DNA of 64,000 nt, taken from contig CP076040.1 in the NCBI GenBank assembly GCA_014529675.2, forward strand, positions 1,178,001 through 1,242,000. Direction: 5' to 3'. The DNA is from Opitutia bacterium ISCC 52. GTDB taxonomy: Bacteria; Verrucomicrobiota; Verrucomicrobiia; Opitutales; UBA2995. Of the stretch, positions 34,994 to 45,039 are shown piece after piece. The notes under the pieces were generated by a model. It saw nothing but the letters and a program-made list of their open reading frames with translations, did not search any database and was not told the origin of the DNA. A program made the translations under genes and the position numbers. The first letter of the stretch is position 1. Each line of letters starts with the position of its first letter.

Positions 34994-35223
34994 ATGGACC
35001 AAGACGCTCCTTCCATTCCAGATCAAGAAAAGGCCTCTGAAGAAAACGAGGTCCAAGATTCAACAATAGGCAAAGAAAGTAGCCGCGGTCGCGAGACCGT
35101 GGAGAGTACGTCTTCTTTAGGCCAGTTCTTGGCCGAGTTGAAGAGAAGAAGAGTCATGCGGGTGGCAGCATCTTCGACCGGCTGCGTGGTAATCCGCGGT
35201 TTGATGCGTTGTTGGAGGATTGA
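34994..35223 (+). pseudogene. TPR/adenylate-cyclase-like regulator relic with large internal deletion
   Basis: The N-terminal part reads LGQFLAELKRRRVMRVA, the hallmark start of a large family of one-membrane-span proteins with a C-terminal TPR array. It should continue with a membrane helix. Instead, from 35170 another frame reads IFDRLRGNPRFDALLED and stops at 35221-35223, which is the typical last segment of the same family. So a deletion of perhaps more than 1 kb joined the two ends out of frame. The ATG at 34994 is the best start (a TTG lies at 34967). Confidence 0.72.
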
Positions 35224-35228
35224 TTGAT

Positions 35229-35618
35229 ATGAGTGGCGAGAGACTTCAGAAGTGGGCTTTGACGGCTGAGATAATTGGAGGGATTGCCATTCTGATCTCC
35301 CTAATCTTTGTTGGCTACGAAGTCAGGCAAAGCACCAAAGAAGCTGCCCTGAAAAGAAACGCTCTTGAGGTATCGTCTTATCAAAACCTTATGGAAGGTA
35401 TTATGGGCCTGAGCCAACCATTAGCCTTGGATGCTGATTTTGCAGAAATCAATCTAGAAGCAATAGGCGCAAAGAGCGAGACATTAACTCAACTGGAAAA
35501 GCTCAGACTAACAAGTTTTATGGTAGGATTTGTAAGACATGGAAGCATGGCCTTTTTTCAGTACCAAAGAGGAGTGATTGATCAGGAACAACTTGATTCT
35601 GTCTTGAGTTACTCCGTT
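35229..35618 (+). pseudogene. Small membrane protein, 3'-truncated near tRNA-His
   Basis: The reading frame begins MSGERLQKWALTAEIIGG with a membrane helix (IAILISLIFVGYEV) and VRQSTKEAALKRNALE, a pattern shared by a widespread group of uncharacterised proteins of about 150-190 residues. The family-like sequence ends near residue 130 (LDSVLSYSV). The frame stays open to 35858 only because it runs antisense through tRNA-His, so the rest is not real protein. Together with the relic at 34994 it marks a scar. Confidence 0.6.
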
Positions 35619-35630
35619 AAACCGGCTTGT

Positions 35631-35648
35631 TCGCCGGTTCTAATCCGG
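35631..35648 (+). repeat. tRNA T-arm fragment (inverted copy of tRNA-His part)
   Basis: 18 bases starting TCGCCGGTTC match the T-arm of tRNA-His (35719-35736, minus strand) at 17 of 18 positions, in opposite orientation and about 90 bases away. It may be left over from a tRNA gene or an attachment site. Confidence 0.5.
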
Positions 35649-35706
35649 GGTCTTAGGTGGTTCCAACATCAACCATTGTGTCCATGCGTTCGGGGAGGGC
35701 GAAGGA

Positions 35707-35784
35707 TGGGGTGGCTAACCGGATTTGAACCGGCGACCCCTGGTACCACAAACCAGTGCTCTAACCAACTGAGCTATAGCCACC
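35707..35784 (-). tRNA. tRNA-His (GTG)
   Basis: Cloverleaf on the minus strand: acceptor GTGGCTA / TAGCCAC, D-arm GCTC...GAGC, anticodon loop TTGTGGT with anticodon GTG, T-loop TTCAAAT. A G at position -1 (35784) faces a C discriminator (35710), the identity feature of tRNA-His. CCA is encoded (35707-35709). Its 3' end faces the relic-rich side. Confidence 0.95.
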
Positions 35785-35980
35785 ATAAAAGGAGGGGTCA
35801 TAGTTGGAATCCGAGGTCCCATGTCAACCCCGATTATAGAGAGATTTTGGTGTGGTAGCTGGGACTGGCACTGTGAAGAGGGCATTGGAGCGAGGTTCGA
35901 TAACCCTGGTCTTGCTTCCGGACGTCAATACTGCGAAGTTTTCAAGCTCAATTTGTAATCTACCCTGATTCTTCTTCTCT

Positions 35981-37342
35981 ATGAAACTTCGTATTTCCTT
36001 GGTCGTCCTGTCGCTATGGGGCTTGTTCGTTTCCTCACTGTCTGGAGCCGACGAACGACCCAATGTCCTATTTATTGCGATCGATGATCTGAATTCCTGG
36101 GTGACTCACCTCGGTGGGCATCCTCAGGCCATCACACCAAACATTGATCGTTTGGCCGAACGGGGAATCACTTTCGAAAATGCCTTCTGTGCGGTGCCTG
36201 CTTGTGAACCCTCTAGAGCGGCCTTGATGAGTGGGCAGCGACCGTGGTCGACGGGTGCCTATTTGAATGGGGATGAATGGATGGAAATTTTTAAGCCTGG
36301 CCAAGGATTGTCCGCTCGTTTCAAGGAGGCTGGATACCATACCGTCGGGGCTGGAAAAATTTATCACAGTGGCGAACGGTTCGAGTCTGAATGGACGGAG
36401 TATATGGATTCTTCCAAACTGGGAAATCATGGCGGCGTTCCCAAGAACCAAGGGTATCATGAACCCTTGGTCATGGATATTAAAGATGAGGATATCGCCG
36501 ATTGGCACTCGGTTAATTGGTGTATAGAGCAGATGAATACAAAGTCCGATAAGCCCAAGTTTATCGCCGCCGGTTTGAACAAACCTCACTTGCCGTTTGC
36601 TCCGCCAAAAAAGTATTACGATGCCTTTCCTTTAGAGGAGATTCAATTGCCACCGTACAAGGTAGACGATCTGGACGATTTGTCGGACGCCGCAAGGAGG
36701 ATGGCGATTCATAACACCGACTTTGCCAGATTCCAGGAAAGCGGTCGATGGAAGGCTGCGATTCGGTCCTACCTGGCTACCTGTGCCTATACGGATATGA
36801 ATGTGGGGCGTCTGCTCGATGGATTGGAGAATAGCTCCATCGCCGATAACACGATCATCGTCCTCTGGGGTGATCATGGGTGGTCATTCGGCGAGAAAAA
36901 TCACTTTCGAAAGTTTGCCCTTTGGGAGGAGCCGACTCAAACGCCCTATGTTTGGGTGGTGCCCGGCATGACACAGGCAGGGACTCGCTCGTCCACACCT
37001 GTTGATTTGATGAGTGTTTATCCGACGCTGTGTGAGTTGGCCGGACTTAAGCAACCGGAAAACATAGATGGAATCAGTATCGTTCCCTTGCTGAACGACC
37101 ACAACCAATATTGGGGTACGCCGGCTATCACTACGCATGGACGTGGCAATCATACTGTTCGCAGCGAACGCTGGCGCTACATTCAATATGTCGATGGGAC
37201 GGAGGAACTTTATGATCACACCGTTGATCCAAATGAATGGACAAACCTCGCTTCAAATGCCAACTACGATGCTATTATAAAACGCCTTAGTGCCTGGCTC
37301 CCGGCAGAAGAAGTCCCTGCGTGGCCCGAGCGAGAAGACTAG
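35981..37342 (+). CDS. Sulfatase, iduronate-2-sulfatase-like
   Basis: A 453-residue exported sulfatase with signal peptide (ISLVVLSLWGLFVSSLSG). Metal ligands in NVLFIAIDDLNSWV (Asp35/Asp36), formylglycine motif CEPSR at Cys75, and LWGDHGWSFGEK. It resembles the gene at 6018 (both have IDDLN and GGHPQA). A compact C-terminus ends at WPERED. First of three consecutive plus-strand sulfatases, so a shared operon is likely; the next gene begins 19 bases later. Confidence 0.94.
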   Translation: MKLRISLVVLSLWGLFVSSLSGADERPNVLFIAIDDLNSWVTHLGGHPQAITPNIDRLAERGITFENAFCAVPACEPSRAALMSGQRPWSTGAYLNGDEWMEIFKPGQGLSARFKEAGYHTVGAGKIYHSGERFESEWTEYMDSSKLGNHGGVPKNQGYHEPLVMDIKDEDIADWHSVNWCIEQMNTKSDKPKFIAAGLNKPHLPFAPPKKYYDAFPLEEIQLPPYKVDDLDDLSDAARRMAIHNTDFARFQESGRWKAAIRSYLATCAYTDMNVGRLLDGLENSSIADNTIIVLWGDHGWSFGEKNHFRKFALWEEPTQTPYVWVVPGMTQAGTRSSTPVDLMSVYPTLCELAGLKQPENIDGISIVPLLNDHNQYWGTPAITTHGRGNHTVRSERWRYIQYVDGTEELYDHTVDPNEWTNLASNANYDAIIKRLSAWLPAEEVPAWPERED

Positions 37343-37360: not shown

Positions 37361-39016
37361 ATGAAGAACTGCATTACAAAAACTACGTGCGCTGTGGGAG
37401 CGGGTTTATTCCGCGATCACACGGTGCAGCCTCAGAGCAATCGCGGGGTTAACCCGCTCCCACAGTTTTCTGCTGTTCTTTTCTGTCTGCTTGCATTCGC
37501 CTCGCAGTCAATCGCCGCTGATGAACGCCCCAACATCCTGCTCATGATGGTGGATGACTTGGGTTATGCTGACTTCGGTTGTTACGGTAGCGAAATTCAG
37601 ACGCCAAACATCGATCGACTAGCCAGCAATGGGCTTCGGCTGACTCAGTTTTACAACACCGCCAAGTGTCACTCATCACGACTCGCCCTCCTGTCGGGGC
37701 AATACAGTCGCTATGCTGGTGAGAGTGATTTTCGCAACGCGGTAACGATTGCGCAGGTGTTAGGCAAAGCAGGCTACAGTACTTCGATGACCGGGAAGTG
37801 GCATTTGGACAAGCAGCCGACAGACTATGGTTTCGAGCAATACTGGGGACACCTTTCTGGCGCGACCGACTTCTTTGCTGGAGATGACACCTTTCGCAAG
37901 AACGGCGAGGTGTGGGATGACTTCGACAAGGATGAAGACTTTTATGTCACCGATGCGAACGTGGATTACGCCATCGAGTTTTTGGATAATGTGATAGAAG
38001 ACGACAAACCGTTCTTTCACTACATTGCTTTTAATGCTCCTCACTATCCGCTACACGCTCCCAAGGAAACCATTGAGAAATACATGGGCCGCTACGATGC
38101 GGGTTGGGAAGTACTACGTGAAGAGCGACTGGTGAAACAGAAGCTGCTCGGGCTATTTCCTTCTGACTTGGAACTAGCCCCTATGCCCGAACATGTTCCG
38201 GCTTGGGATTCACTTACCAAAAAGCAGAAAAAGTTTGAGTCCTTTCGTATGGCGATTTTTGCCGCGATGGTCGATGAAGTGGATCAGAGCATTGGTCGCA
38301 TGATCGATTACCTGAAAGAGAAGGGTGAGTACGAAAACACTTTGATCATGCTTGTCTCCGATAATGGTGCCTGCCCATTTGAACGGAGCTCCAGTATCGA
38401 CATTCCACCCTGGGAGGCGGGGTCTTACTACCTCTACGACGCGAGCTGGGCGACGGTTGGGAATACCCCATTCAAGCATTACAAGCAAACTCAACACGAG
38501 GGCGGAATCTCCAGCCCTTTTATTGCCCACTGGCCTGGGAAGATTAAGAACCCAGGCAGTCTGGACGGCGAGCTTAGTCATTTGATAGATATCATGGCGA
38601 CATGTATTGAATTGGCGGATACAAAATATCCGAAGAAAAAAGGACTGAATCCACTCCAAGGGAAATCACTGCTTCCTGTCTTTGAAGGCAATAATCGTAA
38701 AGGACACGACGAGCTTTGGTTTTCATTTGGAAACTGCCGTGCGATGCGAGAAGGCGACTGGAAGCTCGTCAGCTTTTATCAGCACCAGTGGGAACTCTAT
38801 AACATTGCGGAGGATCGCCTGGAGCAAAACGATCTGGCAGCAAAAATGCCGAAACGAGTCGAAGCGATGAAAGCCCGTTGGTACGAATACGCTAAAGGAA
38901 CCGACATGAAAGGCGACAAGCAGATCGGTCCGGTGAAGAACAAACCATCACCTAATAATCAGGGGAGCTGGCATGCTCCTGAAAAAGTGGCTGATTGGAA
39001 GATGCCCAAACTATGA
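37361..39016 (+). CDS. Sulfatase with REP palindrome translated in leader
   Basis: A 551-residue arylsulfatase-like protein. Metal block LLMMVDDLGYADFG (Asp65/Asp66), modification motif CHSSR at Cys103; the residue after x is Ser, not the usual Pro/Ala, although a Cys-x-Ser-x-Arg form is also seen in formylglycine sulfatases. The ORF starts MKNCITKTT, then about 26 residues are encoded by a REP-like palindrome (37392-37465), and only then the hydrophobic signal core FSAVLFCLLAFASQSIAA follows. The insertion kept the frame, so the protein may still be exported. LVSDNGACPF is the second metal block. Confidence 0.9.
   Translation: MKNCITKTTCAVGAGLFRDHTVQPQSNRGVNPLPQFSAVLFCLLAFASQSIAADERPNILLMMVDDLGYADFGCYGSEIQTPNIDRLASNGLRLTQFYNTAKCHSSRLALLSGQYSRYAGESDFRNAVTIAQVLGKAGYSTSMTGKWHLDKQPTDYGFEQYWGHLSGATDFFAGDDTFRKNGEVWDDFDKDEDFYVTDANVDYAIEFLDNVIEDDKPFFHYIAFNAPHYPLHAPKETIEKYMGRYDAGWEVLREERLVKQKLLGLFPSDLELAPMPEHVPAWDSLTKKQKKFESFRMAIFAAMVDEVDQSIGRMIDYLKEKGEYENTLIMLVSDNGACPFERSSSIDIPPWEAGSYYLYDASWATVGNTPFKHYKQTQHEGGISSPFIAHWPGKIKNPGSLDGELSHLIDIMATCIELADTKYPKKKGLNPLQGKSLLPVFEGNNRKGHDELWFSFGNCRAMREGDWKLVSFYQHQWELYNIAEDRLEQNDLAAKMPKRVEAMKARWYEYAKGTDMKGDKQIGPVKNKPSPNNQGSWHAPEKVADWKMPKL
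37392..37465. repeat. REP-like palindrome, family B, inside sulfatase leader
   Basis: Arms 37392-37416 and 37441-37465 match in 22 of 25 positions as inverted repeats, with words CTGTGGGAGCGGGTT and CCGCGA. The pattern (GTGGGAGC...TTTATTC-CGCGA) recurs in a weaker form at 44761-44832 and resembles REP sequences of Pseudomonas and of Opitutae. Confidence 0.75.
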
Positions 39017-44641: not shown

Positions 44642-45039
44642 TTCGTTAATTGAGGAATGATTTAGAGGCGGCCTTGAGTGGGGGCGCATTTTTTTAATCA
44701 CTGATAGCAGATGAATGTTGATGTCTTCTACGGTTGTGGAGTGCAGAATTCGATTCTTTGTTGTAGGAGCAAATTTATTCGCGACCCTGGCGTAGATTGA
44801 ATTACGAGTCGCGAATAAATTTGCTCCTACAATTAGCTAGTTGCTCTTCAGCTTGTGATTTTTTCTCAGCTAAGAAATCGCTTTCAATTGTTGGATTGCC
44901 CCAATCGTGAGTGTTCAAAGTGATTAGAAATATTACCTAGTATCGGAAGTGGATTTTTTGCGCTAAAAGATCAGTGTAAATCGGTGCCATCATTGGTTTA
45001 TAATAAAACATCTTTAATAGCTAATTACTGCCTCTTTCC
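44642..45039. other. Intergenic region with a REP palindrome
   Basis: 398 bases between the convergent porin and LysR genes. Apart from the palindrome at 44761-44832, I see only AT-rich sequence and no ORF with family resemblance. Confidence 0.5.
44761..44832. repeat. REP-like palindrome, family B, perfect 25-bp arms
   Basis: Arms 44761-44785 and 44808-44832 are exact reverse complements (beginning TTGTAGGAGCAAATTTATTC) around a 22-base loop. Same word order as 37392-37465 (GTAGGAGC...TTTATTCGCGA). It lies between convergent genes. Confidence 0.8.

Follow-up and report, generated by a model that had tools for sequence, protein, structure and literature searches.

A REPIN palindrome in the predicted signal-peptide leader of an Opitutales sulfatase and its recurrence in other leaders of the genus

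REPINs and GTAG-type REPs, together with RAYTs, have been described previously (PMC3116915, PMC3733652). GTAG REPs located within genes were reported in 2013; they were most numerous in Opitutus terrae and more frequent at the N-terminus (PMC3733652). The N-terminal REPs of P. putida, C. koseri, and S. maltophilia were judged mostly noncoding by the authors of that study (PMC3733652). Whether N-terminal REPs are coding was left open by earlier authors and has often been settled as misannotation. The classic translated palindromes, as the review PMC10969869 presents them, are the Rickettsia palindromic elements (RPEs; Ogata et al. 2000, 2002). In addition, an enterobacterial RU-2 (ERIC/RU) element was predicted to be part of the signal peptide of Y. 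pestis YPO1552 (PMC2759123).

We analyzed a 64,000-nucleotide (nt) window of Opitutia bacterium ISCC 52, whose 4.82-Mb genome (G000) is a single contig. On the forward strand, positions 37361-39016 of the window encode a 551-aa sulfatase (PF00884, E=4e-55) with a REPIN in its leader. The start codon and the first ten codons (MKNCITKTTC; 37361-37390, forward strand) lie 5' of the element, which consists of two inverted GTAG-type REPs and spans positions 37392-37465 of the same strand, corresponding to codons 11-35 (covariance model R1, 91.8 bits, E=8.9e-24). Directly behind it, the predicted signal peptide continues from codon 36 with its hydrophobic core (FSAVLFCLLAF) and cleavage region (FSAVLFCLLAFASQSIAA, 37466-37519, forward strand); signal peptides were assessed by hydrophobicity and charge. 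The preliminary description had placed a palindrome in frame between the start and the core, and this position was confirmed: the REPIN is in frame with the sulfatase ORF and contains no stop codon.

The left REP (CTGTGGGAGCGGGTTTATTCCGCGAT, 37392-37417) and the right REP (ATCGCGGGGTTAACCCGCTCCCACAG, 37440-37465), both given on the forward strand, each form their own mini-hairpin, with 37400-37404 pairing with 37410-37414 and 37443-37447 pairing with 37453-37457. They are separated by a forward-strand spacer of 22 nt (37418-37439) that contains an in-frame GTG (codon 22). The earlier length of 74 bases for the whole inverted repeat was thus correct, while the arm count of 22 of 25 had to be corrected to 23 paired positions of 26 (88% complementarity). 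An arm of this kind was expected by chance 0.00 times in the window (100 shuffles). Also as previously proposed, a strong mRNA hairpin is predicted just after the start; the segment 37340-37520 folds with -64.5 kcal/mol (z = -4.2), and equal stability was reached by 0 of 200 shuffled sequences. Inspection by eye for a target-site duplication at the insertion revealed none that we recognized. The window copy reads GTGGGAG...CTCCCAC where its orthologs read GTAGGAG...CTCCTAC, a change on both sides of the stem. Literal GTAG is therefore absent from the window copy (GTGG in both arms) and present in the family consensus GTAGGAGSGGSTTTA, so that assignment of this copy to the REPINs rests on ancestry and on the remaining sequence.

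Upstream, on the same strand, a second sulfatase of 453 aa is encoded (35981-37342, PF00884, E=2e-43), and its stop codon is 50 nt away from the REPIN. A position between codirectional genes is a frequent placement for REPs. Several other features of the neighborhood were recorded. The 89-aa ORF at 39026-39295 matches sigma-70 region 2 (PF04542) in part only and ends where the next sulfatase starts; it may represent an ECF sigma factor gene that has been truncated. A 212-aa ORF (35220-35858) overlaps, with its 3' part, a tRNA-His gene on the opposite strand (35707-35783), and the end of this ORF is probably spurious. The same tRNA gene is touched by an 18-nt inverted repeat formed by 35631-35648 and 35719-35736. 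At 44761-44832 there is another REPIN-like element, whose 25-nt arms (TTGTAGGAGCAAATTTATTCGCGAC) match perfectly around a spacer of 22 nt; it shares the GTAG type of the leader REPIN in an A+T-rich form. When the window sulfatase was used as the single query, 195-275 sulfatase-like matches per genome were obtained across the genus.

The covariance model, which was built from seven copies and seeded partly with the window sulfatase and its orthologs (family A), detected approximately 36 REPIN loci in G000. The family was present in each of the six genus genomes searched, with 4-104 matches per genome at E<=1e-6 when both strands were counted, and two sister-genus species also yielded many matches. 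The copies share a layout of GTAGGAG, a mini-hairpin (e.g. GCGGG-TTTAT-CCCGC), a spacer, and the inverted repeat of the same elements. The GTAGGAGSGGSTTTA consensus, a GTAG tag beside an imperfect palindrome, is common to orthologs, paralogs, and intergenic copies. Y1-transposase genes are also found in the genome. One of them (L018) scored above the NCBIfam cutoff for REP-associated tyrosine transposases (NF047646, 82.4 vs 80 bits), and another (L020) reached 63.3 bits, under the cutoff of 80. The sequences GTAGGAGGGGCCTTGGTCCCG upstream of L020 and GTAGGAGAGGAGCTTGCTCCC upstream of L018 are related, not identical, to the REPIN sequence. The open frame of the RAYT-like L020 runs upstream through a REP (..IVGGALVPKI..); its leader may be REP-derived, or its true start may lie further downstream.

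Named orthologs of the window sulfatase come mostly from Opitutales or Verrucomicrobia metagenome assemblies. Within the genus, orthologs were found in four species, with identities of 91% (G005), 82% (G003), 79% (G002), and 78% (G001); a further one, in G004, is cut off at a contig end. All 4 genus orthologs with a complete 5' end harbor the REPIN at the same codon, the copy in G001 being degraded, and the spacing of 31 nt from the ATG to the REPIN in the window gene is likewise found in G005, G003, and G002. Outside the genus, three relatives (L056, L057, L058) have ordinary short signal peptides without a recognizable REPIN, and two sister-genus orthologs (L165, L166) have their own leaders of about 53 residues, again with no recognizable REPIN, which may or may not be decayed REPINs. 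The long leader of L166 holds a different, perfect palindrome (GGTCCCCGAGGGGACC). Among the orthologs examined, no clean uninserted form of the window gene was found within the genus. Because the REPIN is present in all complete genus orthologs and unrecognizable outside, the sequences date the insertion in family A to before the diversification of the genus, making it at least as old as the genus. The leaders in the genus are shared by virtue of the REPIN, and those of the outgroup are unrelated; a common leader unconnected with REP sequences was not what the orthologs showed.

The window copy is one case of a recurrent pattern, since insertion occurred in at least five gene families. We examined 89 REPINs from six species, namely 16 in G000 and 73 high-scoring ones in the other five genomes; those five are draft assemblies with many contigs, in which only high-scoring hits were covered. 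Ten in-frame leader copies from five gene families were found among the 89, a fraction that may be biased upward by the partial seeding of the model with family A. Each of the ten is followed by a hydrophobic core, and 0 of the 89 was located in a gene interior. REPIN leaders are present in four species in family A; in G000 in family B, a sulfatase paralog with 47% identity; in G001 and G003 in family C, another sulfatase; in G000 in family D, a fourth sulfatase; and in G000 and G005 in family E, which encodes a PSCyt1-domain protein. Copies in orthologs of the same family do not count as independent insertion events. In the family D ortholog of G005, located at a contig edge, the end of a REP is visible. 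Two REPIN-containing ORFs (L148, L154) were considered as leader cases and left out of the count, as they are read in another frame and probably represent 5' regions.

Leaders without an insert were detected in family C (G000, G005), family D (G003), and family E (G004, G007); the uninserted PSCyt1 leaders of the two relatives are short. Aligning relatives, as the preliminary description had suggested, thus provided an uninserted form with the same start in a sister gene family, whereas for the window gene only distant relatives offer one. The earlier view that a mobile palindrome rewrote this leader is supported, but the event is old, and at least five gene families, this one included, underwent such an insertion. 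Other species carry different palindromes at the same leader site of families B and E. The family E palindrome of G003 is a member of a separate dispersed family, for which five species gave 13-26 matches per genome. Three family B orthologs (L032, L033, L034) from three species have three different palindromic leaders at the site of the REPIN of G000. In two family E members (L063, L102), a second palindrome-like stretch (GGTAGGGTTTGATCGCCGTTCCGAGGCAAAGCC) follows immediately behind the REPIN, and two elements may be translated in tandem there.

A chance inverted repeat unrelated to mobile DNA has a negligible probability and is refuted by the shuffle expectation of 0.00 together with the dispersed family in six genus genomes. 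A mis-called start would place the element in a 5' untranslated region, with translation beginning downstream of the REPIN or at an internal GTG. This is what PMC3733652 argues for most N-terminal REPs of three other species, and here an in-frame GTG occurs in the loop of the window, G005, and G002 copies, and an ATG follows shortly after the element in L150 of family C. In the window copy, GTG codons are found in frame at codons 12 and 22, both within the element; the preliminary description was correct that no other in-frame ATG lies between element and core, but did not mention these codons. G003 has neither of them, and the codon 22 GTG is not conserved in G001 either. An internal start may therefore be possible for the window copy alone, and the G003 and G001 orthologs speak against it. 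No ATG, GTG, or TTG occurs after the element, up to where the core ends, in the window copy, in G005-A, in D-G000, or in E-G000. In D-G000, none follows codon 5, and in E-G000, none follows codon 6, up to the core end. In G003-A, none is present at codons 2-45 or inside the element, and the only TTG is within the core. Further, the family E start codon overlaps the preceding stop codon (ATGA, TAATG, GTGA) in 5 of 5 species, irrespective of whether a REPIN, another palindrome, or nothing follows, which marks this start as the original one. Similarly, the overlap TGATG in family B is common to G000, with its REPIN, and G005, with a different palindrome. As several copies offer no start codon between element and core, a real start downstream of the element was not found for them, and on this sequence evidence the leader REPINs must be translated. 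We therefore regard a mis-called start as unlikely.

We then considered what is conserved in the translated elements. Comparison of the four intact family A copies in codon alignment gave third-position differences of 0.12-0.27 in the REPIN vs 0.43-0.57 in the mature part, and second-position differences of 0.12-0.35 vs 0.03-0.08. Compared with the remainder of the gene, the element therefore varies more at the peptide level and less at the DNA level, indicating conservation of the nucleic acid and not of the peptide. In the mini-hairpins of nine translated REPINs, 98.9% of cells are paired and 16 cells are changed on both sides; their covariation score was reached by 0 of 500 shuffles. These patterns show that it is the hairpin, as DNA or RNA, that has been kept and not the REPIN peptide. 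A domesticated leader, in which the REPIN peptide itself was put to use, for instance as a lengthened signal peptide slowing or routing export, could account for the in-frame retention across the genus and for the exact 74-nt length in 9 of 10 leader copies vs 28 of 79 others (Fisher P=0.001 for copies and 0.07 for gene families). However, variation at second codon positions is about equal to, or greater than, that at third positions, and the difference between AGLSR and GALRP arises from compensatory hairpin changes. Peptide-level selection was rejected because of the codon-position differences, and we consider domestication very improbable. The main rival is a functional RNA, in which the hairpin would stabilize or separate the two sulfatase cistrons or tune translation of the second one, its own translation being incidental. 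The strong mRNA fold, the conserved position of the REPIN across species, the compensatory changes, and the codirectional gene junction, a placement reported for REPs generally (PMC3733652), are all consistent with such a role. In contrast, families C (G000, G005) and D (G003) do without the REPIN, families B and E carry different palindromes at its site in other species, and the G001 copy is degraded. Moreover, intergenic REPINs match the leader copies in position and sequence conservation (80-96% for orthologous intergenic REPINs of simple build vs 74-88% for leader copies), so that leader copies show nothing extra and hairpin selection specific to leaders is unsupported. A role of the hairpin at the junction can coexist with a disposable leader; as the explanation of the locus, the functional RNA seems possible and rather doubtful. 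Template switching between inverted repeats has been described as a way in which arms become homogenized (PMC8604942, PMC7202029), and it could contribute to REPIN conservation.

The explanation we consider very probable is that a REPIN mobilized by a RAYT is tolerated and translated in the disposable n-region of a Sec signal peptide. The REPIN is a nonautonomous mobile palindrome, presumably mobilized by a RAYT transposase, that entered the leader in frame, behind the start codon and ahead of the Sec signal-peptide core, before the genus diversified. Its translation would add about 25 residues to the n-region, a region that would tolerate changes in length and sequence. REPIN leaders retain a net positive charge ahead of the core, a further point in favor of their translation, and since both charge and hydrophobic core are kept, the longer leader should still be directed to the Sec pathway. 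Signal peptidase would then remove it, and with the leader cut off, the mature enzyme would be unchanged and the insertion nearly neutral. Thereafter, the palindrome may be maintained as nucleic acid through arm-to-arm template switching, copy exchange, or hairpin selection.

More tentatively, and with slightly less than even confidence, we propose that Sec n-regions are a preferred refuge of mobile palindromes in these Opitutales and that several palindrome families, unrelated to each other, have entered the same site in leaders of secreted enzymes again and again. If so, palindromes survive because the leader is cut off, with the hairpin kept for long, and leaders evolve by palindrome turnover. 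The suggested rule, that mobile DNA not tolerated in the mature protein can be accommodated in a leader that is removed, predicts the sites of translated REPINs in other genomes. DNA sequence evidence alone indicates that "extragenic" palindromes can be genuine coding sequence, and annotators should not automatically trim starts upstream of REPINs.

The elements resemble the described GTAG REPINs in their inverted tagged REPs with small hairpins, in the shortness of the spacer, in the dispersal of copies, which lie mostly at gene junctions, and in the presence of RAYT genes in the genome. They differ in that a minority of copies is translated within leader-coding sequence and in that the window copy has GTGG for GTAG in both arms. 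With the intragenic REP dimers of Opitutus terrae (PMC3733652), they share the phylum Verrucomicrobia, the GTAG superfamily, and in-frame dimers of 20-30 residues; the named O. terrae cases lie in genes for cytosolic repair, uvrA among them, whereas ours precede signal-peptide cores and come with coding evidence. Like the Rickettsia RPEs in the account of PMC10969869, they are palindromic mobile elements translated in frame in many unrelated genes. They lie in frame without a stop codon, and uninserted relatives of the host genes exist in families C, D, and E, and for the window gene among more distant orthologs only. RPEs, compared here by description only, are longer, occur in a different phylum, and are not confined to signal peptides as described in that review. 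The RU-2 element of YPO1552 is a single predicted case in a small ORF, from another element family, and was presented with no cross-species comparison of start codons or codon positions (PMC2759123). Translated REPs were therefore already known from the Rickettsia RPEs and from O. terrae. A leader niche that is used recurrently, and for which translation is supported, appears new in the literature consulted. Against that literature, what this genus adds is the recurrence in leaders of several gene families and species, the relatives that keep the start but have no insert, and the codon positions indicating that nucleic acid rather than peptide is conserved.
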